From positions 1,922,001-1,986,000 of the forward strand of contig NZ_JAFBCB010000001.1 in assembly GCF_016907455.1 (NCBI RefSeq): a DNA stretch of 64,000 bases, read 5' to 3'. The notes below the pieces were generated by a model. It worked only from the letters and a program-made list of their open reading frames with translations. It was not told the origin of the DNA and ran no database searches. The DNA comes from Brachybacterium muris (GTDB taxonomy: Bacteria; Actinomycetota; Actinomycetes; Actinomycetales; Dermabacteraceae). Of the stretch, positions 23,591 to 44,205 are shown in pieces. Numbering within the stretch: the first letter of the stretch is position 1; each line of letters begins with the position of its first letter. The translations under genes were made by a program, and so were the position numbers.

Positions 23591-23704
23591 TGAATATTCG
23601 CCTCGCTGGGGTCCGCTGATCGAGGGTTCGGGTGCCACGTCGCTGCCGTAGCGGTGGCGTCGTTCGGGACCACCAGTGGTGTCGTTGGGGCCGCTCTGTC
23701 TACG

Positions 23705-23743
23705 CTCCTTCCGCCGTGTGTATAGGGCACGCGGCGGAAGGAG
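23705..23743 (+). promoter_or_regulatory. Hairpin sequestering the istA ribosome binding site (copy 1)
   Basis: CTCCTTCCGCCGTG pairs with CGCGGCGGAAGGAG across an 11-base loop. The 3' arm contains the ribosome binding site GGAAGGAG nine bases before the istA ATG, so folding would hide it. Confidence 0.7.
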
Positions 23744-23752
23744 CAATCTGGA

Positions 23753-25315
23753 ATGGTACGGAAGATCAGGGCGAAGCTGGTGCTCCAGCTGCGCGCAGAA
23801 GGTCTGTCGGGGCGAGCGATTTCGTCCTCGCAGGGCATGTCCCGCAAGTCCGTGAGGGCGGTGTTCGAGGCCGCTGACGCTGCAGGGATCGGGTGGGGCG
23901 ATATCGCGGACGTCGCCGATGAGCAGGTGTATGCCCGGTTGTTCCCGGGCCGGGGCGAGCACGAGAGCGTGTTCGCACAGCCGGACTGGGAACAGGTCCA
24001 TCGAGAGATGGCCAGGGTCGGCGTGACGCTGAAGCTGTTGCACGGCGAGTACTTCGACGCGACCACGGCGGCTGGGGATCCGGCGATGGGGTATGACCGG
24101 TTTTGCCGCACCTACCAGCACCACGTCATGGTCACCGGTGCCGCTTCGAGAGTCGGTCACAAGGCCGGCCAGAGCGTGGAGGTCGACTGGTCCGGCCCCA
24201 CGATGGAGCTGGCCGATCCGGTCACCGGCGAGGTCTCGAAGGTGTTCTTGTTCGTTGCCTGCCTGCCTTTTTCTCGTTACGCGTTCTGCTTCCCGGCGCT
24301 GGATATGCGCCAGGAGTCCTGGCTGCGAGCGCACGTAGCGATGTTCGAGGCGCTGGGCGGGACGGTCCCGAGGATCGTTCCGGACAACCTCAAGACCGGT
24401 GTGGTGAAGCACCCCCGCGAGGGCGAGATCGTCCTGAACGATGCGTATCGCGAGATGGCAGCGCATTACTCGGCGGCGGTGCTCCCGGGGAGGGTGCGGA
24501 AACCGAAAGACAAGGCGAGCGTGGAGAACACCGTCGCGCACGTCGCGACCTGGGTCATCGCCGGGCTGCGGGATCAGCGATTCACGTCCCTGCCCGAACT
24601 TGCAGCCGCCATCGGGCAGCGGATGGAGGCCTATAACGCGGAGCCGTTCCAGAAGCGGCCCGGATCCCGCGCCAGCGTGTTCGACGCGGAGGAGCGGCCG
24701 CTGCTGACGCCGCTGCCGGCGGTGCCCTACGAGATCTCGACATGGCACTACGGACGACGAGTGGGCAGGAACGGGCACGTCACGTTCGCGCGGAACTTCT
24801 ACTCCGCGCCGTTCGCGCACATCGGCGCGAAGGTCGATCTGCGCATCACGGCCCGGACGCTGGAGATCTATCAGGGCAGCCAGCGACTGACCAGTCACCT
24901 GCTGCTCCCGGAGACCGCGAGCAATGAGTACCGCACCAACGACGCGGACCTACCTGCGGGCGAGCGTTTCCAGGCCTGGGACGCGCAGAGGGTGCGGGCG
25001 TGGGCAGATCGGGTCGGGCCGGCCACGGTGATCGTGATCCAGCGGATCTTCGAGTCCGTGCCGATCGTGGAACAGGGCCTGGATCCCGCGTTGGCGGTGC
25101 TACGGCTCTCTCGCCGCTTCTCCGTAGATCGGGTCGAGGCGGCCTGCGCACTCGCGCTGACGGGACGGGTCCGTTCACCGCGCTATGCGCATCTGCACCC
25201 GATCTTGGCCACCGGGCAGGACAAGGTCGCCGCCCTGCGTCCACCCCGCGAGGAACCCGCGGAAGACGGCGGATACGTCCGTGGCGCCGACTACTACGCC
25301 GGAGGTGTCCGGTGA
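23753..25315 (+). CDS. istA: IS21 transposase IstA (copy 1)
   Basis: A 520-residue DDE transposase. An N-terminal helix-turn-helix (about residues 8-45, LRAEGLSGRAISSSQGMSRK) binds the ends. The retroviral-integrase-like catalytic domain has VDWSG (first Asp), RIVPDNLKTGV (second Asp) and KASVENTVAHV (Glu). The C-terminal part holds the Mu-type beta-barrel and a region that contacts IstB. It starts at ATG 23753 after GGAAGGAG, which lies in a hairpin. It appears intact and full length for the family. Confidence 0.97.
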   Translation: MVRKIRAKLVLQLRAEGLSGRAISSSQGMSRKSVRAVFEAADAAGIGWGDIADVADEQVYARLFPGRGEHESVFAQPDWEQVHREMARVGVTLKLLHGEYFDATTAAGDPAMGYDRFCRTYQHHVMVTGAASRVGHKAGQSVEVDWSGPTMELADPVTGEVSKVFLFVACLPFSRYAFCFPALDMRQESWLRAHVAMFEALGGTVPRIVPDNLKTGVVKHPREGEIVLNDAYREMAAHYSAAVLPGRVRKPKDKASVENTVAHVATWVIAGLRDQRFTSLPELAAAIGQRMEAYNAEPFQKRPGSRASVFDAEERPLLTPLPAVPYEISTWHYGRRVGRNGHVTFARNFYSAPFAHIGAKVDLRITARTLEIYQGSQRLTSHLLLPETASNEYRTNDADLPAGERFQAWDAQRVRAWADRVGPATVIVIQRIFESVPIVEQGLDPALAVLRLSRRFSVDRVEAACALALTGRVRSPRYAHLHPILATGQDKVAALRPPREEPAEDGGYVRGADYYAGGVR

Positions 25316-26058
25316 GCGTGATCGATAACGACACGAAGCGGAAGCTGCGCGAGATGGGCGCGACCGCGCTGCTGGACGCGATCGATGCCCAGGATGAGGC
25401 TCACGTGCTGGGGATGTCGTTCCAGGAACGGCTCCAGCTGATCGTGGACGAGGCGCATTCCATCTTCAATCATGGAAAGGTCGAGGGTCTGATCCGCCGG
25501 GCGGGGCTGCGTTATCCCGGAGCGGACCTGCGGCGGCTGGATCTGGTCGAGGAACGGGGACTGAACCGGAACGTGATCGCGCAACTGGCAACCTGCTCCT
25601 TCATCCAGCGGCAACAGAACGTGGTCTTCCAGGGCTTCACCGGCTCAGGGAAGTCCTACCTCGGCTGCGCGCTGGCGAAGCAGGCCTGCCAGCACCGGCT
25701 CCGAGCCCACTACATCCGAATGCCCGACCTCGAAGAGGCCTGGGCCCTGGCAAAGGACAAGCCGCAGGGCCAGACGAAGTTCCTGCGGAAGTACTCCACG
25801 TTCTCGCTGCTGGTGATCGACGAGTGGCTGCTGGACCATCCTGACGAGGGAATGCGTTCGATGCTGCTGGAACTGCTCGAGCGCCGCTATGACACCGGCT
25901 CGACCGTGTTCTGCACCCAGTACCCGAAGAAGGACTGGCACGCCCGGCTCGGTGGAGCAGTCCACGCCGATGCGATCATGGACCGCATCGTGCACAACAC
26001 AATCTGGATCGACACCGGCGACAGGAACATGCGAGAACACACCGCACTGCCCCAGTGA
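25312..26058 (+). CDS. istB: IS21 helper ATPase IstB (copy 1)
   Basis: A 248-residue AAA+ protein that helps IstA choose and remodel target DNA. Walker A is FQGFTGSGKSYLGCALA, Walker B is LLVIDEWLL, and the sensor region is STVFCTQYPKKDWHARL. The start GTG overlaps the istA TGA (GTGA), typical translational coupling in IS21 elements. It appears intact. Confidence 0.96.
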   Translation: MSVIDNDTKRKLREMGATALLDAIDAQDEAHVLGMSFQERLQLIVDEAHSIFNHGKVEGLIRRAGLRYPGADLRRLDLVEERGLNRNVIAQLATCSFIQRQQNVVFQGFTGSGKSYLGCALAKQACQHRLRAHYIRMPDLEEAWALAKDKPQGQTKFLRKYSTFSLLVIDEWLLDHPDEGMRSMLLELLERRYDTGSTVFCTQYPKKDWHARLGGAVHADAIMDRIVHNTIWIDTGDRNMREHTALPQ

Positions 26059-26171
26059 CCCGATGCCGGCGGGAGCCAGTGGTCCCCACCGCGGCGGCTA
26101 CTGGCCCCCGTCGGCACGATCGGCGGTCCCCAAGAGCAAGATTCGGTGGCTCCCACGACTACGAATACTCA

Positions 26172-26659
26172 GTCTGCATGTCGAAGGTGACGAAGCCCTG
26201 CTCTGCGGCCTCGGCGCTGTCGATCACCACGGTCCCGCCGATGTCGGTGAGCTCGGTGAGTGTGGGTTCCCAGGTCCAGGCGGCATCGATCTGTCCGGCG
26301 CGGGCCGCGGCGGGCATCTTGTCATTGGTCAGGTTGATGACCTCGACCTGCCCTTCGATACCGGCAGCCGAGATCATCGACAGCAGCACGTAGTGCGGGG
26401 TCGCGCCGAAGGTGACCGCCACGCGCTTGCCGGCGAGGTCCTCGATCGACGTGATCTCCTCGTCGAAGGCCACCAGGGCCTCGGACGACCCGATCACGTC
26501 GGGCACCCAGACCAGGGAGATGGGGAGGTCCAGGGGCGGGCTCATGGCCTTGACCCCGGCGGAGGAGCCGTAGATGCCGATGTCGATGGAGCTCGATCCG
26601 AACGCCTGGATCACGTCGTTGCCACCGTTGAAGCGCAGCCATTCGATCGTGGCGTTGAT
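26172..26659 (-). pseudogene. ABC substrate-binding protein, middle part (N-terminus deleted)
   Basis: About 160 codons of the same binding protein as at 23240-23590. The first readable residues are INATIEWLRFNGGNDVIQ, followed by SSSIDIGIYGSSAGVKA, LVWVPDVIGSSEALVAFD and IEDLAGKRVAVTFGATPHY, all typical of TauA/SsuA-like proteins. The signal peptide and about the first 50 residues are missing. The sequence passes directly into the tail of a plus-strand gene, so a deletion has removed the start of this gene and whatever lay upstream, presumably the permease. The exact junction is within a few codons of 26659. Confidence 0.8.
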
Positions 26660-28693: not shown

Positions 28694-29293
28694 ATGGGGA
28701 CTGCGACGGCGGCACCTCCGGGCCGGGGCCAGGAGCTGTACAGGGCCGAGTTCTACCCGATCTTCCCCATCCTGCAACGGATCGGGCTGGTGATCGCCGG
28801 AGCGGTCTTCGTGGTCCCCGCGCTCCTGCTCGGGGTCCTCGTCGCGATCGCCATGCAGTCGACCTGGGGCATCGTGGTGGCACTGGGAGTGGTCCTCGTC
28901 GGAGCCGCCCTGGGCGGGGTGTTCATCGCACTGACGTGGCGCAGCACGTCGATGGCCATGGTGGTGACCACCACCGGCATCGAGGTGCGCGGGTACTGGA
29001 TCCGCCGTTGGGTCCCGTGGGAGCAGATCGCGAGGATCGAGTCCAGCGCCCACTGGTACTGGCGCCGGGCCACCTGCATCCTCACCCACCACAGCCTTAC
29101 GGCCAACGGCGAGCGCATCATCGCCACCGTGACGGCCTACCAATACATCTTCTGGCGCAATGAGGCGTACGACGCCCAGGCCCGCGATCCGCGCGAACAC
29201 CTCATGCCCACCCGGGTGGCGATCGACGCGCACCGCAGATACCTGCGCGGCGAGTTCTCTGCTGCCGCTTCCCCCGACCGGGAGAAAGCCTGA
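28694..29293 (+). CDS. Membrane protein with PH-like domain
   Basis: A 199-residue protein of unknown function from ATG 28694, preceded by GGGAAGGA. Two membrane helices lie at about residues 30-53 and 58-82. The soluble part starts MVVTTTGIEVRGYWIRRWVP, with WEQIARIE after it, as in bacterial PH-like domains. The order of parts and the C-terminal HRRYLRGEF resemble the protein at 21785. Its stop overlaps the start of the next gene by one base, so the two are probably translationally coupled. Confidence 0.6.
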   Translation: MGTATAAPPGRGQELYRAEFYPIFPILQRIGLVIAGAVFVVPALLLGVLVAIAMQSTWGIVVALGVVLVGAALGGVFIALTWRSTSMAMVVTTTGIEVRGYWIRRWVPWEQIARIESSAHWYWRRATCILTHHSLTANGERIIATVTAYQYIFWRNEAYDAQARDPREHLMPTRVAIDAHRRYLRGEFSAAASPDREKA

Positions 29294-30020
29294 TGACGGC
29301 GCCGTCGATCGTGGCACCCGTACGGGTGCTCACCGCTGCGCAGGCCCGTCAGGCCCGGCTGCTCCACGAGGAGCGGGCCGACGCCCTCACTGCCGAGCAC
29401 CGGGAGCGCCGCGCGCGAGGTGAGAAGCACCCCGTGGAGGACTTCCTGTTCTCCTACTACCCGTTCTCCACTGCGCGTCTGCGGCGCTGGCATCCGGGGT
29501 GGCGCATGGCCTACGACCCTGTCGCCGACCTGGACCCCGCGGGGCACGGGATCGGCGGTGACGTGCAGGAGGACGGCTCACGCACCTGGTACGTGGACGT
29601 TCCCGCGGGAACGTTCGAGTCCGAGATCCCGGACGGGGACGTTCCTGCGGGAACGCTTCTGCGCCGGGCCGATGTGGACCGGTATCTCGCCGAACGCTCT
29701 GATGCGCTCGGCTTCATGGTGCGTCTGCTGTCTGCCTCATCCATGGCGCGGCGCACCCCGCAGTTCGGCTGCTTCGGGCTGCATGAGTGGGCGATGGTGC
29801 ACGGACTGCGACCGGGACAGCAGCGCCACGAGGCCCTCCCGCTGCGCCTGAGCCAGGCCGAGACCGACGCAGTGGTGGAGAGGGAGCGCCTGGTGTGCTC
29901 GCACATCGATGCGTTCCGCTTCTTCACCCCCTCGGCCGCCCCGCGCAACGCCACCCAGCCCACCCGGGCCACCCAGGAGGCCAACGACAACCCGGCCTGC
30001 CTGCACGTGGGGATGGACCT
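29293..30020 (+). pseudogene. Conserved actinobacterial protein often labelled 3-methyladenine DNA glycosylase, N-terminal part
   Basis: This piece gives about 243 codons of a family that, from memory, is commonly annotated as 3-methyladenine DNA glycosylase in actinobacteria; the activity is not proven by anything here. Conserved blocks are HPVEDFLFSYYPFSTARLRR, QFGCFGLHEWAMVHGL, CSHIDAFRFFTP and PACLHVGMDL. At the last block the reading frame runs into foreign DNA and stops at 30033. The rest of the protein, beginning at DLYKW, is found 6.4 kb downstream at 36425-36694. The break is flanked by the direct repeat GACCT. The start ATG overlaps the preceding stop. Confidence 0.85.
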
Positions 30021-30117
30021 CCACACGTCATAAAGACATCGTACCTCTGGTGAGGCACACCACTCTTTGTGCTCGGCACAGGTATGCTCAGCTCACACGC
30101 TGAACATAGGAGAAGAA

Positions 30118-30492
30118 ATGCCCACGACCTGCGCTGTCAACGGTTGCCCCGCCGAAGCCAAGACCCCCCTCCCCCTCCTGGCGGGAGGAGAGGTGCGGTT
30201 GGAGTGGTTGACGTGCCAACTTCACGCCGATGCGATCCGCGCGGGCGAGGAGTTCTCCATCTCGGGGGCCAACGACTCCACGATCTTCATGGGTACCGAC
30301 CTCCCGCCCAAACTCGAAAGCGTCAGTGCGGTCGGCTTGGGAAACGTGCCCACCCTGCTCCTCAACCTCGAGGACCGTGACGGCGGCAAGCGCCAGATTG
30401 CCATTGAAGTGACCCGTGACCAGATCGACATGCTTGGAGACCTGCTCGTCAAGGACGTGATGTTTGAGGCAACACCTGTAGCCGACGCGTGA
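30118..30492 (+). CDS. Small protein with putative zinc finger, function unknown
   Basis: A 124-residue protein from ATG 30118 after a clear AGGAGAAG ribosome binding site. Near the N-terminus CAVNGCPAEA is followed about 25 residues later by LTCQLHADAI. The Cys-Cys/Cys-His spacing suggests a small zinc knuckle. The C-terminal two-thirds is a mixed beta/alpha region (VPTLLLNLED, IAIEVTRDQIDMLGDLL) without a family I can name. There is no signal peptide or membrane segment. A TATGCT at 30083 may be a -10 box. It is the first gene of the inserted segment and may have been next to the 443-aa gene before the IS1380 element entered. Confidence 0.65.
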   Translation: MPTTCAVNGCPAEAKTPLPLLAGGEVRLEWLTCQLHADAIRAGEEFSISGANDSTIFMGTDLPPKLESVSAVGLGNVPTLLLNLEDRDGGKRQIAIEVTRDQIDMLGDLLVKDVMFEATPVADA

Positions 30493-30740
30493 TCAGTGGT
30501 TCATACGCACCGGGAGAGCGCCCGACTTTCGGCGAATTGTGCTCAGGTGCGGATGGACGACTCCTGGCGTTAGCCTCGATCTTTCATGGTGCTGCTGAGC
30601 GGCGGTGTCCGGCGTCGTTGCCGGTGTGCGCGAGCTGATTGTGGCATGAGGGTGTGACGGGTCGCCGCGTGTCGATCGCGGTGGCCGGGCGTTCCGGTGC
30701 CAGGGTCCTTGGGGAGTGCGGTCAGCGACGGGGCCGGGAG

Positions 30741-31212
30741 CTATCCGGCCGGGGCGGGAAGCTGGGTGAGGCGGTCGTAGCCTGCCTGGATGATCCCGGC
30801 CCAGCGTGACCGGTCCGAGAGATGCAGGACCCGCTGCCGGGCATGGCGAGCGAAGGTTGCGGCGGTCTGGAACAGACGCAGTCGCTGGCGTTTGGGTTCC
30901 CATCGCCGTGCCGAGGAGTCGGGAAGCGCGAGCAGGCCCATCCAGGCAGTGATTTCGCTGGCCAGAGCGATGATCTGGCACCAGATCCGGTTCTGGGCGA
31001 AGGATTTCAGCGGCAGGTTCCGTAAGCCAGCGTCTTTCGCGGCCCGGATCCGGTCCTCGCAGCGAGCACGGCGACGGTGGCGCACTTCCAGGTCCGCCAA
31101 CTGGCCTTGCGTGGTGTTGGTCGCGAAGGCGGTCAGGCGGTAACCGTCGACGTCCTCGAACCGCAGCTGCGCCCCGGGGTGCGGTCGCTCGCGGCGGACG
31201 ATGACCCGCACC
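30741..31212 (-). pseudogene. IS1380-family transposase, C-terminal part
   Basis: About 156 codons from VRVIVRRERPHPGAQLRF through GQLADLEVRHRRRARCEDRI and LRNLPLKSFAQNRIW, typical of the C-terminal catalytic part of IS1380/IS1677-type transposases with the last acidic residue in the RCEDRIR block. It continues from the piece at 33794-34715 once IS21 copy 2 and one duplicated pentamer are removed. Confidence 0.88.
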
Positions 31213-31326
31213 TGAATATTCGCCTCGCTGGGGTCCGCTGATCGAGGGTTCGGGTGCCACGTCGCTGCCGTAGCGGTGGCGTCGTTCGGGACCACCAGTG
31301 GTGTCGTTGGGGCCGCTCTGTCTACG

Positions 31327-31365
31327 CTCCTTCCGCCGTGTGTATAGGGCACGCGGCGGAAGGAG
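31327..31365 (+). promoter_or_regulatory. Hairpin over the istA ribosome binding site (copy 2)
   Basis: Identical to the hairpin in copy 1; the 3' arm contains GGAAGGAG. Confidence 0.7.
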
Positions 31366-31374
31366 CAATCTGGA

Positions 31375-32937
31375 ATGGTACGGAAGATCAGGGCGAAGCT
31401 GGTGCTCCAGCTGCGCGCAGAAGGTCTGTCGGGGCGAGCGATTTCGTCCTCGCAGGGCATGTCCCGCAAGTCCGTGAGGGCGGTGTTCGAGGCCGCTGAC
31501 GCTGCAGGGATCGGGTGGGGCGATATCGCGGACGTCGCCGATGAGCAGGTGTATGCCCGGTTGTTCCCGGGCCGGGGCGAGCACGAGAGCGTGTTCGCAC
31601 AGCCGGACTGGGAACAGGTCCATCGAGAGATGGCCAGGGTCGGCGTGACGCTGAAGCTGTTGCACGGCGAGTACTTCGACGCGACCACGGCGGCTGGGGA
31701 TCCGGCGATGGGGTATGACCGGTTTTGCCGCACCTACCAGCACCACGTCATGGTCACCGGTGCCGCTTCGAGAGTCGGTCACAAGGCCGGCCAGAGCGTG
31801 GAGGTCGACTGGTCCGGCCCCACGATGGAGCTGGCCGATCCGGTCACCGGCGAGGTCTCGAAGGTGTTCTTGTTCGTTGCCTGCCTGCCTTTTTCTCGTT
31901 ACGCGTTCTGCTTCCCGGCGCTGGATATGCGCCAGGAGTCCTGGCTGCGAGCGCACGTAGCGATGTTCGAGGCGCTGGGCGGGACGGTCCCGAGGATCGT
32001 TCCGGACAACCTCAAGACCGGTGTGGTGAAGCACCCCCGCGAGGGCGAGATCGTCCTGAACGATGCGTATCGCGAGATGGCAGCGCATTACTCGGCGGCG
32101 GTGCTCCCGGGGAGGGTGCGGAAACCGAAAGACAAGGCGAGCGTGGAGAACACCGTCGCGCACGTCGCGACCTGGGTCATCGCCGGGCTGCGGGATCAGC
32201 GATTCACGTCCCTGCCCGAACTTGCAGCCGCCATCGGGCAGCGGATGGAGGCCTATAACGCGGAGCCGTTCCAGAAGCGGCCCGGATCCCGCGCCAGCGT
32301 GTTCGACGCGGAGGAGCGGCCGCTGCTGACGCCGCTGCCGGCGGTGCCCTACGAGATCTCGACATGGCACTACGGACGACGAGTGGGCAGGAACGGGCAC
32401 GTCACGTTCGCGCGGAACTTCTACTCCGCGCCGTTCGCGCACATCGGCGCGAAGGTCGATCTGCGCATCACGGCCCGGACGCTGGAGATCTATCAGGGCA
32501 GCCAGCGACTGACCAGTCACCTGCTGCTCCCGGAGACCGCGAGCAATGAGTACCGCACCAACGACGCGGACCTACCTGCGGGCGAGCGTTTCCAGGCCTG
32601 GGACGCGCAGAGGGTGCGGGCGTGGGCAGATCGGGTCGGGCCGGCCACGGTGATCGTGATCCAGCGGATCTTCGAGTCCGTGCCGATCGTGGAACAGGGC
32701 CTGGATCCCGCGTTGGCGGTGCTACGGCTCTCTCGCCGCTTCTCCGTAGATCGGGTCGAGGCGGCCTGCGCACTCGCGCTGACGGGACGGGTCCGTTCAC
32801 CGCGCTATGCGCATCTGCACCCGATCTTGGCCACCGGGCAGGACAAGGTCGCCGCCCTGCGTCCACCCCGCGAGGAACCCGCGGAAGACGGCGGATACGT
32901 CCGTGGCGCCGACTACTACGCCGGAGGTGTCCGGTGA
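31375..32937 (+). CDS. istA: IS21 transposase IstA (copy 2)
   Basis: The 520-residue translation is the same as in copy 1, with the DDE residues in VDWSG, VPDNLKTGV and KASVENTV. The gene appears intact, so this copy can in principle supply transposase for all three elements. Confidence 0.96.
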   Translation: MVRKIRAKLVLQLRAEGLSGRAISSSQGMSRKSVRAVFEAADAAGIGWGDIADVADEQVYARLFPGRGEHESVFAQPDWEQVHREMARVGVTLKLLHGEYFDATTAAGDPAMGYDRFCRTYQHHVMVTGAASRVGHKAGQSVEVDWSGPTMELADPVTGEVSKVFLFVACLPFSRYAFCFPALDMRQESWLRAHVAMFEALGGTVPRIVPDNLKTGVVKHPREGEIVLNDAYREMAAHYSAAVLPGRVRKPKDKASVENTVAHVATWVIAGLRDQRFTSLPELAAAIGQRMEAYNAEPFQKRPGSRASVFDAEERPLLTPLPAVPYEISTWHYGRRVGRNGHVTFARNFYSAPFAHIGAKVDLRITARTLEIYQGSQRLTSHLLLPETASNEYRTNDADLPAGERFQAWDAQRVRAWADRVGPATVIVIQRIFESVPIVEQGLDPALAVLRLSRRFSVDRVEAACALALTGRVRSPRYAHLHPILATGQDKVAALRPPREEPAEDGGYVRGADYYAGGVR

Positions 32938-33680
32938 GCGTGATCGATAACGACACGAAGCGGAAGCTGCGCGAGATGGGCGCGACCGCGCTGCTGGACG
33001 CGATCGATGCCCAGGATGAGGCTCACGTGCTGGGGATGTCGTTCCAGGAACGGCTCCAGCTGATCGTGGACGAGGCGCATTCCATCTTCAATCATGGAAA
33101 GGTCGAGGGTCTGATCCGCCGGGCGGGGCTGCGTTATCCCGGAGCGGACCTGCGGCGGCTGGATCTGGTCGAGGAACGGGGACTGAACCGGAACGTGATC
33201 GCGCAACTGGCAACCTGCTCCTTCATCCAGCGGCAACAGAACGTGGTCTTCCAGGGCTTCACCGGCTCAGGGAAGTCCTACCTCGGCTGCGCGCTGGCGA
33301 AGCAGGCCTGCCAGCACCGGCTCCGAGCCCACTACATCCGAATGCCCGACCTCGAAGAGGCCTGGGCCCTGGCAAAGGACAAGCCGCAGGGCCAGACGAA
33401 GTTCCTGCGGAAGTACTCCACGTTCTCGCTGCTGGTGATCGACGAGTGGCTGCTGGACCATCCTGACGAGGGAATGCGTTCGATGCTGCTGGAACTGCTC
33501 GAGCGCCGCTATGACACCGGCTCGACCGTGTTCTGCACCCAGTACCCGAAGAAGGACTGGCACGCCCGGCTCGGTGGAGCAGTCCACGCCGATGCGATCA
33601 TGGACCGCATCGTGCACAACACAATCTGGATCGACACCGGCGACAGGAACATGCGAGAACACACCGCACTGCCCCAGTGA
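32934..33680 (+). CDS. istB: IS21 helper ATPase IstB (copy 2)
   Basis: The 248-residue AAA+ ATPase has the same translation as in copy 1 (Walker A GFTGSGKS, Walker B LLVIDEW). Its GTG start overlaps the istA stop by four bases. Confidence 0.95.
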   Translation: MSVIDNDTKRKLREMGATALLDAIDAQDEAHVLGMSFQERLQLIVDEAHSIFNHGKVEGLIRRAGLRYPGADLRRLDLVEERGLNRNVIAQLATCSFIQRQQNVVFQGFTGSGKSYLGCALAKQACQHRLRAHYIRMPDLEEAWALAKDKPQGQTKFLRKYSTFSLLVIDEWLLDHPDEGMRSMLLELLERRYDTGSTVFCTQYPKKDWHARLGGAVHADAIMDRIVHNTIWIDTGDRNMREHTALPQ

Positions 33681-33793
33681 CCCGATGCCGGCGGGAGCCA
33701 GTGGTCCCCACCGCGGCGGCTACTGGCCCCCGTCGGCACGATCGGCGGTCCCCAAGAGCAAGATTCGGTGGCTCCCACGACTACGAATACTCA

Positions 33794-34715
33794 GCATCTG
33801 CTCAGGCCAGTCCTTGAGGTCCAGCAGTCCGGTCAGCTCGGCCACGTCCGCCCCTTCTCGTGGGGTGCCGTCGGGGTCATAGGCCGGCTCCCAGACATGC
33901 TCGGGGATGATCCGATAGACCTCCGGGGTGTTGGCGGGCAACGTGAATCCCACCGAGTACGAGACCCGGCGTTTGACCAGCTCCTCGATGGTTTTCTTGG
34001 TGGAGCCGGCACCGTCGATCCGGATCAGCACCTTCTTCCCCGGCCTGGGCCCCAGCCCTACTTGGGCCAGCGCCTGTCTGATCACGGTCTTGTGGTCAGC
34101 AGCCGTGTTCGAGCCCGCGTTCCCGGGCCGGAGCAGGCAGGTCAGCATCTCCCCACCACCGCCTTCGCCGTGGTCGGCGAAGGCCAGCAGGGGATGGAAC
34201 CCGAATCCCTTCTTGAACGTCGCTCGTGCGTTCTCCTTCTCGCTATGAGCTGTCACGAGGGTGGCGTCCAGATCGATGACCAGCGGGTTCTTCGCGGTGA
34301 CGTGATGGCTCGGGGCATGGCTGCCGGCCCGAGCCCACGCCGCCTCGCGGGCGCGGCGCCGGGCGGTGTTGATCGCGCGTTCGGCAGCATCGACATCGCT
34401 GGCCAGGAGCGCGAGCAGGCGAGAGATCGTGGGATCCGAGGCCACCTGACCGTAGACGTCCGGCTCGGCCCGCACCGCGGCGACGTCGGCCAGGCAGTCC
34501 CCGCCCACAGCCAGTGTCAGCGCGAGGTCGAGCAGGATCTTGCCTGGATCATGCTGCGCCAACGGGCGCCGCCACGGTCCCAGCGCTTGCGACAGGGCCC
34601 GGTCCAGACCGGTGGCGCGGACCGTCTCGGTCAGCAGCACCCCACCCGCCTGCCCCACCGCCGCACTCGGTGCGACATCAACCTGCACCCGCGGATACAA
34701 CCCGGTAGTGTTCAC
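33794..34715 (-). pseudogene. IS1380-family transposase, N-terminal part
   Basis: About 307 codons from GTG 34715. Family blocks are SAAVGQAGGVLLTETVRATG, LAVGGDCLADVAAVRAEP, PLVIDLDATLVTAHSEKENA (catalytic Asp region) and VLIRIDGAGSTKKTIEEL (second Asp). It ends at GLLDLKDWPEQM where IS21 copy 2 begins. With the C-terminal piece the intact protein would be about 463 residues, as expected for this family. Confidence 0.9.
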
Positions 34716-34941
34716 CCTGAAGGTGCTCCTTCGACCTTGGAGAATTGGACCCTAAGCAAGCCCTATTCTTCCAGGTCAGGAGCACCTTTCCGCGTCTACG
34801 ACCACCCCTCGGACACCTCAACGATGAAAGCCCGAGGTTAACTGCGCACCCCTACGACCCGCAGCTCCCGGCACCGTACGATTCCTCTAGCGTCGAACGC
34901 GGCGCAGGATGCCGCCGAACAGAGCCGTTAGGAAGCGTCAT

Positions 34942-36273
34942 ATGGAGAGCACAGGCAGAACCAGCCACCGCGCCCCGAGCACCTGCATGATGCCGAGCAC
35001 GTGCCGCATACCAGTCGTGCACAGGCGACTTGAAGCCGCGCATCGCGCATGGCATACCGCCCGCGAAGGCTACAACGACCCCAATGACTTTACTTTTGGC
35101 CTAAATAGCTGCATTCAAGAGCTACGCAACGTAACATTCGCCCTTCAATCGGCTCTCCGGAATAAAGTAGAGGGATTCGATGAGTGGTATGCACCATGGT
35201 CCCAGACACTTCGATCAGACGACGTATGCAAATGGGCAAGTAACGCTCGCACGGAAATCACCAAGGTTGGCGATCTAAATTCACGTTCAACCCTCCGAGT
35301 GTGGCACCTCTTCACCTACGATGATGTTGCCGCGTTTCGCCAGTACAAGGTAAATGGCGCCGATTATAGCAACTACGCAATAGAGCCACTCTTAAGCGCC
35401 GCCGAGGTTGTCGAGAATGACAAATTAGCCTCCGGCAATTCGCCTAGAGTTCAAGCGCTCGGGATGGAGCGACGGTGGACCGTCCCTGAGATTCCCGAGT
35501 GGGAGCTTCTGGATGCTCTTTCACACTGCTACGGCGTACTGGCAAAACTCGTAATAGACTGCGAAGCCAGCCTCATCGCGCCTCTAAGCGGCAGGAACTA
35601 TTCCGCCTTCGCGGAGCAAATTACGGACAAAACCACAACGCCGAACTGCATGCGAGCAAAGGAAACTGACCGGCTAGAGCTAGTCTCTCCGAAAACCGGC
35701 CTTGCCAGCGCGCACCGCATTACGAGAATCGAGCGAGATGATAGTACGCTGCCAGAATTAGTGGAGCGTTATGGGCCGCTTCGGGTTCTGCCGAAAGACG
35801 TGTCCTCCCCCCTCGATCTAGTATTACCTCAGTTCAATAACGCCAAGAGAGTGCTTGCCGCCGACGGTTATCACCTTCGAATACAGATGCTGTATCGAGG
35901 TACTACTATCGTTCACAACGAAGCGGTCGAGCTAGGCGACCGGACCGATAAATATATGCACTCCTTGCGTTTGGCCGAGCTTGCAACGCGACTTGGCGCG
36001 GACGGCTTCTTCGAGATAGCCGAAGCCTGGTACGCAAGCGCGCATTCAGCAACGGCTGATCCATACGGCGAAATCTCCGACCGGGAAGGTCGACGCGAGA
36101 TACTCTTCGTGACAGCGTTTACCCGGCGGGAGGGCGTTCTGTCGCGATGGTGCTTTTTCAATCGCACGGCTTTCGGGATTACTTTCGAGGAAGACCGCTC
36201 GGATACCCTAGCGTGGAATCACCTCAAGCCCCTAGCCCAGTCCTGGGGAGTGGGTTTCGAAGCAACCATTTAG
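34942..36273 (+). CDS. Unknown protein, AT-richer foreign gene in the insertion
   Basis: A 443-residue protein I cannot assign. ATG 34942 is favoured by AGGAAG seven bases upstream; an in-frame ATG at 34909 is possible. Residues 25-130 look all-helical (HRRLEAAHRAWHTAREGYND, FTFGLNSCIQELRNVTFALQ, EWYAPWSQTLRSDDVCKWAS, NARTEITKVGDL), a pattern I have seen in conserved hypotheticals of actinobacterial genomes. The second half (300-440) is mixed, with RLAELATRLGADGFFEIAEAW and a closing beta-rich part. No signal peptide, membrane helix or catalytic motif is evident. Codon use is plainly AT-richer than the host, with many AAT, ATA and TTA codons, so it is recently acquired. Cargo of the insertion; a defence or accessory role is only a guess. 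Confidence 0.75.
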   Translation: MESTGRTSHRAPSTCMMPSTCRIPVVHRRLEAAHRAWHTAREGYNDPNDFTFGLNSCIQELRNVTFALQSALRNKVEGFDEWYAPWSQTLRSDDVCKWASNARTEITKVGDLNSRSTLRVWHLFTYDDVAAFRQYKVNGADYSNYAIEPLLSAAEVVENDKLASGNSPRVQALGMERRWTVPEIPEWELLDALSHCYGVLAKLVIDCEASLIAPLSGRNYSAFAEQITDKTTTPNCMRAKETDRLELVSPKTGLASAHRITRIERDDSTLPELVERYGPLRVLPKDVSSPLDLVLPQFNNAKRVLAADGYHLRIQMLYRGTTIVHNEAVELGDRTDKYMHSLRLAELATRLGADGFFEIAEAWYASAHSATADPYGEISDREGRREILFVTAFTRREGVLSRWCFFNRTAFGITFEEDRSDTLAWNHLKPLAQSWGVGFEATI

Positions 36274-36424
36274 GTAATCTGCCTCTTTGAACGGCTTTGC
36301 ATGAAAGTTGAGGGATAGGTCATGGTCGCTCTATACCGATCGTGCGTCGGAACCGTAGCGGATCACAAACGTTGACTCCCAAGCTATGGCCGTAAAGGCG
36401 CAACTTTGAGTGCTATTTTCTCCT

Positions 36425-36694
36425 GACCTGTACAAGTGGGCGATGAAGCTCTCCCCCTTGGTGCCGAGCTCCCTGGTGCTGGACTGCTTCGAGCACGCCC
36501 GCGAGACCCGCGTGCTGGACATGGAAGCGAGCCCGTATGACGTGCGGCCCCTGGGCTACGGGGTGGTCCCGATCGAGACGCCTGCCGGGAAGGCGGAGTA
36601 CGTGCGGCGGCAACGTGCCCTGGTCGACAGGGCCGAGCAGCTCCGCGGGCGGATCCTGGGTGAGCTCGAGGGATTGCCGGTCGACGCTCCCTGA
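36425..36694 (+). pseudogene. Glycosylase-family gene, C-terminal part
   Basis: Ninety codons that complete the gene broken at 30020: DLYKWAMKLSPLVPSSLVLD, ARETRVLDMEASPYDVRPLG and GKAEYVRRQRALVDRAEQLR, ending at TGA 36694. A GTG at 36410 inside the insertion is in frame and could start a short fragment, but there is no evidence it is expressed. Confidence 0.85.
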
Positions 36695-38992: not shown

Positions 38993-41581
38993 ATGGCTTC
39001 GCTGACCCCTTTCCTGCCCGGTGACCACTCCTCCCCCGTCGCCGCGGACGACGAGGCGGCGCAGGACCGGATCGTCGACGGGTTCATCGCCTCCCAGGAG
39101 GAGATCGGCCGCACCCTGTACCCCCACCAGGAGGAGGCGCTGCTGGCGATCGCCGCCGGGGACCATGTGATCGCAGCGACCCCCACCGGATCGGGGAAGA
39201 CCACCATCGCCTACGCAGCCCTGTTCGCGGCCATGGCCCGCGGCGAGCGGGCCTACTACACCGCCCCCATCAAGGCCCTGGTGAGCGAGAAGTTCTTCGA
39301 CCTGGTCTCCCAGTTCGGCGCGGAGAACGTGGGCATGATGACCGGGGACAGCTCCGTGAACCACGATGCCCCGATCATCGTGTGCACCGCGGAGATCTTC
39401 GCCAACCATGCCCTGCGCGACGGTCCCACCTCCGATGTGGGCCTGGCGGTGATGGACGAGTTCCACTTCTACGGCGACTCCCAGCGCGGTTGGGCCTGGC
39501 AGGTGCCGCTGGTGGAGCTGCCCAACTGCCAGTTCGTGCTGATGAGCGCGACCCTGGGCGATGTCACCTTCTTCGAGGAGGACCTCGAGCAGCGCACCGG
39601 CCGCCCGGTCACCACGATCGACGACGCGCCCCGCCCGGTGCCGCTGGACTTCCGCTGGTCGATGGAGCCGCTGCCGGACACGATCGCCACGATCCTCCAG
39701 GACCGCGACGCCCCGGTGTACATCGTGCACTTCACGCAGAAGGAGGCGCTGGAGCAGGCACAGGCCCTGCAGAGCCAGAAGATCCTCACGGCTGAGGAGA
39801 AGGAGCGGGTGCGGGAGATCATCGGCGACTTCCGCTTCGCCAAGGGCTTCGGCCGCACCCTGTCCAAGCTGGTGCGGGAGGGAATCGGTGTGCACCACGC
39901 CGGGATGCTGCCCAAGTACCGGCGACTGGTGGAGAAGCTCGCCCAGTCGGGCCTGCTGAAGATCATCTGCGGCACCGACACCCTGGGTGTGGGCATCAAT
40001 GTGCCGATCCGCACCGTGCTGCTGACGGGACTGGTGAAGTACGACGGACGCCGCTCCCGCCTGCTGAACGCCCGCGAGTTCCACCAGATCGCCGGTCGTG
40101 CTGGAAGGGCCGGCTACGACACCGTCGGTCACGTGGTGGTCCAGGCCCCGATCTGGACCATCGAGTTCGAGCGCGAGCGCGCCAAGGTGCGCGCCCGGGA
40201 GGAGGCCGGCAAGGCCCCCAACAACGCGAAGAAGCGCAAGAAGGAACCCAAGCCCAAAGTGCCCGATGGTGCGGTGACCTGGTCCGAGCAGAACCTCACC
40301 AAGCTGGTGGAGAACCCCCCGGAGCAGCTGCGCCCCCACCTGCGGATCACCGCTTCCATGGTGCTGGCGCTGATCACCCGCCCCGGGGACGCGATCGCCG
40401 CGGGCCGGCACCTGATCATGACCAGCCACCAGACCCGCACCCAGAAACTGGTGCTGGTGAAGCAGGCCGTGGAGATCTTCCGCGGGCTGCGCGACGCCGA
40501 CATCATCGAGATCCTCGATGAGCCCGACCACCTGGGCCGCCGGATCGCCCTGGTGGAGGACCTGCAGCTGGACTTCACCATGAACCAGCCGCTGGCCCCC
40601 TTCGCGATCGCGATGATCGACTCCCTGGACGAGGAGGCGGACACGGTCACCCTGGACACCGTCTCGATCATCGAGGCGATCCTGGAGGACCCGATGCAGA
40701 TCCTGCTGGCCCAGCAGAACGCCGCCAAGGGCGAGCTGCTGGCGGAGCTGAAGGCCGACGGCGTGGAGTACACCGAGCGGATGGCGCAGCTGGACGAGGT
40801 CACGTGGCCGAAGCCCCTGGCCGAGGACCTCGAGGCGGCACTGGAGATCTATCGCGCCAAGCACCCCTGGGTGCGGGCCGGGGACCTCTCCCCCAAGTCG
40901 ATCGTGCGGGAGATCTACGAGACCGGGCAGACCTTCAGCGAGTTCGTGCAGCGCTACACCCTGGCCCGCTCCGAGGGCATCGTGCTGCGGTACCTCTCGG
41001 ACGCCTACCAGGCGATGCGCCGCACTATCCCCCAGGACCTGCGCACCGAGCAGCTCGAGGACATGATCGAGTGGCTGGGCGTGCTGGTGCGCGGCATCGA
41101 CTCCTCCCTGCTGGACGAGTGGGAGGCCCTCACCCATCCCGAGGACGCTCCCGACGGCGCCGAGGAGATCAGGCCCACGACCCCGCGGGGGCTGTCCGCC
41201 CAGACCAAGGTGCTGCGCACGATGGTGCGCTCGGCGATGTGGCAGCGGGTGGAGCACTTCGCCTTCGAGCGGGAGGCACGCCTGGCAGAGCTGGACGGCG
41301 CCTCCGGATGGGACCGGAAGGCCTGGGCCGAGGCCATGGACGACTACTACGACACCTACGACCACGTGGGGATAGACGGCCCGGCCCGCTCACCGCAGCT
41401 GCTGCAGATCACCGAGGAGTCCAAGGTGTGGCGGATCCGCCAGGTGCTGGATGACCCGGACCACAACCGCGACTGGGGCATCGAGGCGGAGCTGGACCTG
41501 GAGGCCACCGACGAGGCCGGCGAGCCGGTGCTGGCGATCACCCACGTGGGCGTGAATATTCGCCTCGCTGGGGTCCGCTGA
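38993..41581 (+). CDS. Ski2-like DEAD/DEAH-box helicase (DUF3516 type), C-terminal tail altered by IS21
   Basis: An 862-residue superfamily 2 helicase. Motif I is ATPTGSGKTTIAYAA, motif II is MDEFHFYG, motif III is LMSATLG, then GIGVHHAGMLPKYRRLVE and motif VI HQIAGRAGRAGYD. The C-terminal half matches the DUF3516 extension of actinobacterial members. Substrate RNA or DNA is not known. IS21 copy 3 begins at 41553, so the last nine residues (VNIRLAGVR) and the stop come from the IS. Joining across the IS with one GGCG removed restores an original end of ...ITHVGELGGH. The core is intact, so the protein is likely functional. GAGACT six bases before the ATG suggests leaderless start. Confidence 0.92.
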   Translation: MASLTPFLPGDHSSPVAADDEAAQDRIVDGFIASQEEIGRTLYPHQEEALLAIAAGDHVIAATPTGSGKTTIAYAALFAAMARGERAYYTAPIKALVSEKFFDLVSQFGAENVGMMTGDSSVNHDAPIIVCTAEIFANHALRDGPTSDVGLAVMDEFHFYGDSQRGWAWQVPLVELPNCQFVLMSATLGDVTFFEEDLEQRTGRPVTTIDDAPRPVPLDFRWSMEPLPDTIATILQDRDAPVYIVHFTQKEALEQAQALQSQKILTAEEKERVREIIGDFRFAKGFGRTLSKLVREGIGVHHAGMLPKYRRLVEKLAQSGLLKIICGTDTLGVGINVPIRTVLLTGLVKYDGRRSRLLNAREFHQIAGRAGRAGYDTVGHVVVQAPIWTIEFERERAKVRAREEAGKAPNNAKKRKKEPKPKVPDGAVTWSEQNLTKLVENPPEQLRPHLRITASMVLALITRPGDAIAAGRHLIMTSHQTRTQKLVLVKQAVEIFRGLRDADIIEILDEPDHLGRRIALVEDLQLDFTMNQPLAPFAIAMIDSLDEEADTVTLDTVSIIEAILEDPMQILLAQQNAAKGELLAELKADGVEYTERMAQLDEVTWPKPLAEDLEAALEIYRAKHPWVRAGDLSPKSIVREIYETGQTFSEFVQRYTLARSEGIVLRYLSDAYQAMRRTIPQDLRTEQLEDMIEWLGVLVRGIDSSLLDEWEALTHPEDAPDGAEEIRPTTPRGLSAQTKVLRTMVRSAMWQRVEHFAFEREARLAELDGASGWDRKAWAEAMDDYYDTYDHVGIDGPARSPQLLQITEESKVWRIRQVLDDPDHNRDWGIEAELDLEATDEAGEPVLAITHVGVNIRLAGVR

Positions 41582-41666
41582 TCGAGGGTTCGGGTGCCAC
41601 GTCGCTGCCGTAGCGGTGGCGTCGTTCGGGACCACCAGTGGTGTCGTTGGGGCCGCTCTGTCTACG

Positions 41667-41705
41667 CTCCTTCCGCCGTGTGTATAGGGCACGCGGCGGA
41701 AGGAG
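41667..41705 (+). promoter_or_regulatory. Hairpin over the istA ribosome binding site (copy 3)
   Basis: Identical to those in copies 1 and 2. Here it matters most, because helicase transcripts read straight into this element. Confidence 0.7.
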
Positions 41706-41714
41706 CAATCTGGA

Positions 41715-43277
41715 ATGGTACGGAAGATCAGGGCGAAGCTGGTGCTCCAGCTGCGCGCAGAAGGTCTGTCGGGGCGAGCGATTTCGTCCTCGCAGGGCAT
41801 GTCCCGCAAGTCCGTGAGGGCGGTGTTCGAGGCCGCTGACGCTGCAGGGATCGGGTGGGGCGATATCGCGGACGTCGCCGATGAGCAGGTGTATGCCCGG
41901 TTGTTCCCGGGCCGGGGCGAGCACGAGAGCGTGTTCGCACAGCCGGACTGGGAACAGGTCCATCGAGAGATGGCCAGGGTCGGCGTGACGCTGAAGCTGT
42001 TGCACGGCGAGTACTTCGACGCGACCACGGCGGCTGGGGATCCGGCGATGGGGTATGACCGGTTTTGCCGCACCTACCAGCACCACGTCATGGTCACCGG
42101 TGCCGCTTCGAGAGTCGGTCACAAGGCCGGCCAGAGCGTGGAGGTCGACTGGTCCGGCCCCACGATGGAGCTGGCCGATCCGGTCACCGGCGAGGTCTCG
42201 AAGGTGTTCTTGTTCGTTGCCTGCCTGCCTTTTTCTCGTTACGCGTTCTGCTTCCCGGCGCTGGATATGCGCCAGGAGTCCTGGCTGCGAGCGCACGTAG
42301 CGATGTTCGAGGCGCTGGGCGGGACGGTCCCGAGGATCGTTCCGGACAACCTCAAGACCGGTGTGGTGAAGCACCCCCGCGAGGGCGAGATCGTCCTGAA
42401 CGATGCGTATCGCGAGATGGCAGCGCATTACTCGGCGGCGGTGCTCCCGGGGAGGGTGCGGAAACCGAAAGACAAGGCGAGCGTGGAGAACACCGTCGCG
42501 CACGTCGCGACCTGGGTCATCGCCGGGCTGCGGGATCAGCGATTCACGTCCCTGCCCGAACTTGCAGCCGCCATCGGGCAGCGGATGGAGGCCTATAACG
42601 CGGAGCCGTTCCAGAAGCGGCCCGGATCCCGCGCCAGCGTGTTCGACGCGGAGGAGCGGCCGCTGCTGACGCCGCTGCCGGCGGTGCCCTACGAGATCTC
42701 GACATGGCACTACGGACGACGAGTGGGCAGGAACGGGCACGTCACGTTCGCGCGGAACTTCTACTCCGCGCCGTTCGCGCACATCGGCGCGAAGGTCGAT
42801 CTGCGCATCACGGCCCGGACGCTGGAGATCTATCAGGGCAGCCAGCGACTGACCAGTCACCTGCTGCTCCCGGAGACCGCGAGCAATGAGTACCGCACCA
42901 ACGACGCGGACCTACCTGCGGGCGAGCGTTTCCAGGCCTGGGACGCGCAGAGGGTGCGGGCGTGGGCAGATCGGGTCGGGCCGGCCACGGTGATCGTGAT
43001 CCAGCGGATCTTCGAGTCCGTGCCGATCGTGGAACAGGGCCTGGATCCCGCGTTGGCGGTGCTACGGCTCTCTCGCCGCTTCTCCGTAGATCGGGTCGAG
43101 GCGGCCTGCGCACTCGCGCTGACGGGACGGGTCCGTTCACCGCGCTATGCGCATCTGCACCCGATCTTGGCCACCGGGCAGGACAAGGTCGCCGCCCTGC
43201 GTCCACCCCGCGAGGAACCCGCGGAAGACGGCGGATACGTCCGTGGCGCCGACTACTACGCCGGAGGTGTCCGGTGA
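41715..43277 (+). CDS. istA: IS21 transposase IstA (copy 3)
   Basis: The 520-residue translation equals copies 1 and 2, with a complete DDE triad. It lies in line with the helicase gene, 133 bp after its present stop. Confidence 0.96.
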   Translation: MVRKIRAKLVLQLRAEGLSGRAISSSQGMSRKSVRAVFEAADAAGIGWGDIADVADEQVYARLFPGRGEHESVFAQPDWEQVHREMARVGVTLKLLHGEYFDATTAAGDPAMGYDRFCRTYQHHVMVTGAASRVGHKAGQSVEVDWSGPTMELADPVTGEVSKVFLFVACLPFSRYAFCFPALDMRQESWLRAHVAMFEALGGTVPRIVPDNLKTGVVKHPREGEIVLNDAYREMAAHYSAAVLPGRVRKPKDKASVENTVAHVATWVIAGLRDQRFTSLPELAAAIGQRMEAYNAEPFQKRPGSRASVFDAEERPLLTPLPAVPYEISTWHYGRRVGRNGHVTFARNFYSAPFAHIGAKVDLRITARTLEIYQGSQRLTSHLLLPETASNEYRTNDADLPAGERFQAWDAQRVRAWADRVGPATVIVIQRIFESVPIVEQGLDPALAVLRLSRRFSVDRVEAACALALTGRVRSPRYAHLHPILATGQDKVAALRPPREEPAEDGGYVRGADYYAGGVR

Positions 43278-44020
43278 GCGTGATCGATAACGACACGAAG
43301 CGGAAGCTGCGCGAGATGGGCGCGACCGCGCTGCTGGACGCGATCGATGCCCAGGATGAGGCTCACGTGCTGGGGATGTCGTTCCAGGAACGGCTCCAGC
43401 TGATCGTGGACGAGGCGCATTCCATCTTCAATCATGGAAAGGTCGAGGGTCTGATCCGCCGGGCGGGGCTGCGTTATCCCGGAGCGGACCTGCGGCGGCT
43501 GGATCTGGTCGAGGAACGGGGACTGAACCGGAACGTGATCGCGCAACTGGCAACCTGCTCCTTCATCCAGCGGCAACAGAACGTGGTCTTCCAGGGCTTC
43601 ACCGGCTCAGGGAAGTCCTACCTCGGCTGCGCGCTGGCGAAGCAGGCCTGCCAGCACCGGCTCCGAGCCCACTACATCCGAATGCCCGACCTCGAAGAGG
43701 CCTGGGCCCTGGCAAAGGACAAGCCGCAGGGCCAGACGAAGTTCCTGCGGAAGTACTCCACGTTCTCGCTGCTGGTGATCGACGAGTGGCTGCTGGACCA
43801 TCCTGACGAGGGAATGCGTTCGATGCTGCTGGAACTGCTCGAGCGCCGCTATGACACCGGCTCGACCGTGTTCTGCACCCAGTACCCGAAGAAGGACTGG
43901 CACGCCCGGCTCGGTGGAGCAGTCCACGCCGATGCGATCATGGACCGCATCGTGCACAACACAATCTGGATCGACACCGGCGACAGGAACATGCGAGAAC
44001 ACACCGCACTGCCCCAGTGA
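43274..44020 (+). CDS. istB: IS21 helper ATPase IstB (copy 3)
   Basis: The 248-residue translation equals the other copies; four-base overlap with istA, Walker A and B motifs intact. Confidence 0.95.
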   Translation: MSVIDNDTKRKLREMGATALLDAIDAQDEAHVLGMSFQERLQLIVDEAHSIFNHGKVEGLIRRAGLRYPGADLRRLDLVEERGLNRNVIAQLATCSFIQRQQNVVFQGFTGSGKSYLGCALAKQACQHRLRAHYIRMPDLEEAWALAKDKPQGQTKFLRKYSTFSLLVIDEWLLDHPDEGMRSMLLELLERRYDTGSTVFCTQYPKKDWHARLGGAVHADAIMDRIVHNTIWIDTGDRNMREHTALPQ

Positions 44021-44205
44021 CCCGATGCCGGCGGGAGCCAGTGGTCCCCACCGCGGCGGCTACTGGCCCCCGTCGGCACGATCGGCGGTCCCCAAGAGCA
44101 AGATTCGGTGGCTCCCACGACTACGAATACTCAGGCGAGCTGGGCGGGCACTGAGGTCGTCCGCGCGTCCCGCCGGAGTGCCCAGCAGCCGCGTACGGTT
44201 GCCGG

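Follow-up and report, generated by a model that had tools for sequence, protein, structure and literature searches.

Insertion of a two-gene islet at GACCT in a conserved gene of Brachybacterium muris: a relative of phage lambda Ea47 in what may be the remnant of a larger element

A conserved gene of the high-GC actinobacterium Brachybacterium muris is interrupted by a 6,404-bp insert that is flanked on both sides by GACCT and harbors, in addition to insertion sequences (ISs), an orphan gene and a gene for a distant homologue of the phage lambda protein Ea47. It is located in the window analyzed here, a stretch of 64,000 nucleotides that corresponds to positions 1,922,001-1,986,000 of the complete 3.65-Mb chromosome and whose numbering is used below. 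We favor the reading that the insert is what is left of a larger element that had integrated here, be it a prophage, an integrative element or a plasmid, and give this reading somewhat less than an even chance; the capture of a linear foreign fragment is a less probable but serious competitor, and the data do not decide between the two.

The left fragment of the disrupted gene (29293..30020, plus strand), which is 84% identical to the intact gene of a congener, terminates with the left copy of the 5-bp direct repeat (30016..30020), and its reading continues into the insert up to a chance stop at 30033. The right copy of GACCT (36425..36429) precedes the right fragment (36430..36694, plus strand). 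Deletion of positions 30021-36429, which retains one GACCT, joins both fragments to an open frame of 330 aa that reads ...CLHVGMDLYKWAMKL... across the junction. An uninterrupted gene with a single GACCT or GATCT at the corresponding position is present in all congeneric loci fetched (19/19), and the best relative exhibits 85.8% identity over 992 bp. The left part of the gene was found in 50 of the 58 relatives searched, of which the 19 fetched congeners were examined in detail and the rest represent matches to the left part only. The continuity of the gene in the congeners thus documents that the insertion is real and, within the set examined, confined to this genome, and it bears out the original prediction of a conserved gene split at GACCT with a single-copy empty site in related genomes.

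The probability that two random junctions share at least five bases is about 0.005 by hand calculation, and the GACCT repeat is therefore meaningful, but with 5 bp it is too short to distinguish by itself between a target duplication, a recombinase core and microhomology. Both ends of the insert (30021..30117 and 36274..36424) are non-coding, and their comparison revealed neither terminal nor subterminal inverted repeats, in agreement with what had been noticed initially. Dyad symmetry of the kind associated with serine integrases does not exceed that of shuffled sequences, neither for the rejoined insert ends (P 0.18) nor for the empty site (P 0.93). Profile searches of the insert detected no integrase or other recombinase beyond the IS1380 and IS21 transposases, so the supposed lack of an own recombinase holds, and no phage, conjugation or att-like features are left in it. 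Terminal inverted repeats are a feature of the known DDE elements that duplicate 5 bp of their target. A transposon of this type (Tn3, Tn7 or Mu) is not supported, since the insert contains neither inverted repeats or dyad symmetry nor a cognate transposase or any other non-IS recombinase, and its ends occur only once in the genome.

The exact repeat, the restoration of the frame on excision and the compact two-gene core would also suit a small non-autonomous transposon that duplicated 5 bp of its target, was mobilized by an enzyme encoded elsewhere and delivered both genes. The missing inverted repeats nevertheless render this scenario improbable, as do the insert ends, for which the genome contains no second copy (all further matches are IS21 and IS1380 material), and the core DNA, which was not found in plasmids and whose phage matches are restricted to IS1380-related sequences. 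Other insertions with the same ends, for which a search had been suggested, are accordingly lacking in this genome. Even less credit is due to a class of non-autonomous cassettes without terminal inverted repeats that would duplicate 5 bp, rely on an enzyme in trans and move Ea47-like genes and other cargo among actinobacteria; although a new type of transposon is conceivable, nothing speaks for it. The initial proposal of a non-autonomous or undescribed element, or alternatively the scar of a larger one, survives in its second half: the scar is favored, whereas the undescribed transposon lacks support.

About 4.26 kb of the insert are taken up by an IS1380-family element (30574..34837, minus strand), whose transposase gene is split by an IS21-family element (31213..33793, plus strand), and the nested arrangement recognized at the outset is thereby corroborated. 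Both halves of the IS1380 transposase match PF13701 and NF033539 (E 9e-54 and 2e-35 for the latter), and the 182.6-bit half exceeds the cut-off of 180 bits. The limits of the element were derived from a comparison with other genomic copies, which start with CCTCG and finish with CGAGG, and its own ends are of the CCTCGA...TCGAGG type. It corresponds to the IS1380 family in transposase and ends, and differs by the IS21 split and by its flanks TTAG/TTAA, which represent an imperfect 4-bp target duplication; a perfect duplication is a feature of the insertion that is not required for family membership. Several other IS1380 copies in the genome exhibit the perfect duplications CTAG, TTAA or CTCG, and one further copy (L068) also shows a one-base mismatch (CTAG/CTAA). 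The flanks TTAG/TTAA could be explained by one point mutation and also by a deletion between two IS1380 copies. The closest relatives of the element within the genome are 77-78% identical. Elsewhere on the chromosome, two oppositely oriented IS1380 copies (L077 and L078; G000:C1 2152294-2153232 and 2155267-2156205) are separated by about 2 kb, and L078 has unlike flanks (CTAG/TTAG), a pattern that would agree with inversion of the intervening segment. The terminal region of the window copy (34718-34830) is matched by the Rfam "sRNA" family Ms_IGR-7 (RF02469) with 42 of 45 bits, just under the gathering score, and what this family describes may actually be the end of an IS1380 element.

The IS21 element is composed of istA for the transposase (31375..32937, plus strand; NF033546, 228 bits, cut-off 160) and istB for the helper ATPase (32934..33680, plus strand; PF01695, E 7e-41), the latter with 140.7 bits on Pfam (cut-off 24.1) and 185 of 200 on NF038214. 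Both genes and the ends TGAATATTCG/TGAGTATTCG are those of the IS21 family, from which it stands out by an unusually large expansion to about 130 copies. We counted 130 exact left ends in the 3.65-Mb genome and at least 35 copies of about 2.58 kb with 99-100% identity; the expansion is apparently recent, and if the majority of the copies are complete, IS21 would make up as much as about 9% of the chromosome. Three copies are located in the window (about 23591-26174, 31213-33793 and 41553-44136). Given the 130 left ends in the genome, the presence of IS21 at this site says little about the insert, and IS1380 is the more telling of the two elements.

The non-IS core comprises positions 30021-30573 and 34838-36424, which refines the limits proposed originally and confirms the estimated size of about 2.1 kb (2.14 kb). 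Its two genes are both encoded on the plus strand. Gene 1 (30118..30492) is an open reading frame for an orphan protein of 124 aa that is preceded by the ribosome-binding-like sequence GGAGAAG. Its G+C content amounts to 63% and that of gene 2 to 55%, a gap that is consistent with segments of different origin that were brought together; gene 2 is indeed, as had been stated, richer in AT than the neighboring host genes (about 68-71% G+C). Relatives of gene 1 were found neither in 297 genomes of the order nor in phages, plasmids or viral contigs, and the search of 385 genomes of the class returned only stray matches (E 0.005 upward). None of the profile libraries searched contains a family for it, which leaves its former label "zinc-knuckle-like" without support, and an AlphaFold2 model from the single sequence is poor (pLDDT 40). 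Neither gene 1 nor gene 2 matches any PADLOC defence model at E up to 1.

Gene 2 (34909..36273, plus strand) encodes a protein of 454 aa, or 443 aa from the alternative start at 34942, and had been regarded as cargo of uncharacterized kinship. This view has to be abandoned, as its sequence identifies the product as a distant homologue of phage lambda Ea47. It matches PHROG_19262 with E 8e-19 over profile positions 8-337 of 410, and lambda Ea47 together with its lambdoid relatives was retrieved by tblastn with E 8e-17 and about 25% identity. The homology extends over about 76% of gene 2 (residues 39-385) and includes conserved R, W and RRW positions, and 17 positions are invariant in an alignment of 22 members of the family. 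A further likeness to lambda is the placement as a single accessory gene near an att end, but lambda has ea31-ea59 alongside, which are absent from the window insert. Ea47-like genes are rare: the order has them in 2 of 297 genomes and the class in 3 of 395, counts that include the window genome. A scan of named genomes recovered 24 loci from actinobacteria, Clostridiaceae, Gallicola, Patescibacteria and others, plasmid-borne homologues of gene 2 are present in Streptomyces, Nocardia, Arthrobacter, Acidithiobacillus and E. coli, and the scan of viral contigs gave no confirmed relative.

Three PLSDB records assigned to Stenotrophomonas, Paenibacillus and Salmonella (NZ_CP104294.1, NZ_CP068597.1 and NZ_CP082339.1) have the length of lambda (48,499-48,502 bp) and the same ea47 score, and probably represent contamination with lambda DNA; "Campylobacter phage CJLB-4" (MW057783.1, 48,361 bp) may be another such case. 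The E. coli plasmid pSM107_MCR (IncI2; L037) harbors lambda-type J, lom and tail-fibre genes together with ea47 near the shufflon pilV and an integrase, and is possibly a phage-plasmid co-integrate.

A recombinase gene adjoins the Ea47-like gene in a few loci. In L042 the latter overlaps the end of a serine recombinase gene, in L063 it is convergent with a large serine recombinase, and in L059 it follows a phage integrase at a distance of about 230 bp; in lambda, ea31 and ea59 stand between ea47 and att/int. A comparison of occupied and empty sites in Micromonospora (L049) placed the gene about 24 bp inside the edge at which synteny with the rest of the genus ends, and was informative for one edge only. 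That several other elements have the gene next to an integrase or close to an att site argues for the scar of a larger element. Most Ea47-like neighborhoods, on the other side, contain no recombinase among the three nearest open frames per side, and none of the Ea47-like genes is close to a tRNA that would indicate tRNA-linked integration. No neighbor recurs that might represent a conserved partner, and the gene thus travels alone. Neighbors of the defence type are an nSTAND3 gene (L044), a PIN-domain gene (L045) and DUF4365 (L058), and a joint scan of 66 neighbors yielded two GajA/OLD-type ATPases and one Pycsar effector. Ea47-like genes hence stand beside defence genes in some loci, which, as raw counts, is a lead only.

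The AlphaFold2 model based on 22 homologues (pLDDT 80.5, pTM 0.73) consists of an N-terminal helical bundle and a C-terminal alpha/beta part. As a whole it has no significant match among solved structures, and the sole significant structural matches are small uncharacterized phage proteins, e.g., from Mycobacterium phage Catdawg (7e-5). The bundle bears the motif R103-x4-K108, which corresponds to R-N-x3-K/H in the family: R is present in 22/22 aligned sequences, the following N in 20/22 and K at the last position in 21/22, including the window protein, while H occurs only in L046 and, beyond the alignment, in L036 (RNLVVH) and L043 (RNVTLH). The canonical HEPN motif R-x4-6-H, with its usual polar residue after R, is formally not present in the window protein, which has K in place of H. 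HEPN toxins (7ae6, 7ae9, 7ae2, 8yuf; Z 6.9-7.8) rank among the better structural matches but are on a par with unrelated four-helix bundles such as FAT (Z 8.0-8.6), and their values are below the trusted level for helical bundles; the structure search excluded no HEPN, recombinase or defence family, as absence from its ranked list is no evidence. The resemblance of the N-terminal domain to HEPN is suggestive only, and the domain may derive from HEPN with the catalytic histidine mostly lost. A protein of 258 aa in L043 (1378-2154, minus strand), which resembles only the N-terminal part of Ea47 and contains the complete R-x4-H (RNVTLH), is judged from its sequence a possible active HEPN-like relative.

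As the sole sizeable non-IS protein of the insert, and with a family scattered over distant bacteria, the Ea47-like protein might itself be the recombinase of a minimal autonomous element. We consider this very unlikely: the predicted helical bundle and alpha/beta part gave no recombinase match, although this is a weak test, its relatives adjoin genuine integrases, and lambda prophage strains whose ea47 had been replaced continued to serve for induction and phage delivery (PMC11980383). Lambda ea47 is described in the same study as non-essential and serves as an insertion site, and the lambda interaction map places Ea47 in the unknown class (PMC3224144).

Under the favored reading of a remnant, a larger element would have entered the conserved gene at GACCT by means of a site-specific recombinase of its own, with gene 1 and the Ea47-like gene as its two outermost accessory genes. 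The middle part with the integrase would have been lost later, plausibly because two IS1380 copies recombined or because DNA next to an IS1380 was deleted. A single IS1380 with the imperfect duplication TTAG/TTAA would have stayed behind, into which IS21 then inserted during its genome-wide expansion. The Ea47-like protein would not be the mobilizing enzyme but cargo that may act in phage exclusion or bind RNA. The imperfect target duplication is as expected after an IS-mediated deletion and, together with the neighborhoods, favors this reading. Prophage morons and terminal accessory genes are likewise foreign genes of different composition that occupy the end of an integrated element, but the insert has no phage genes that would prove such an origin. 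The insert itself contains no integrase gene, and the remnant is in this respect inferred. Several points weigh against a remnant: there are no phage, conjugation or att-like features, the junction arms are devoid of dyad symmetry, TTAG/TTAA could reflect one point mutation as in L068, five bases are short for a tyrosine-integrase core, and most relatives have no recombinase nearby. None of the genomes searched yielded a relative in which the element is present at full length.

The competing explanation dispenses with a mobile element: a linear foreign piece with both genes, with or without IS1380, would have become inserted at a staggered double-strand break, either through Ku-dependent end joining or via the 5-bp microhomology. 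The genome encodes Ku (E 9.9e-50), and a captured fragment would conform to two unrelated genes of differing composition, to ends that are unique in the genome and to an insert with neither inverted repeats nor recombinase. For a random fragment, however, it is rather tidy that both ends lie in non-coding DNA just beyond complete genes, and we regard capture as possible but the less likely of the two.

Lambda ea47 accordingly emerges as one member of a widely scattered accessory family that reaches Actinobacteria, Clostridia and Acidithiobacillus, and whose conserved N-terminal motif is open to mutation and testing. As for the insertion, it is an ordinary genomic islet with edges that are still exact, and it lends itself well to the question of whether ISs wear integrated elements down until only the end genes are left.
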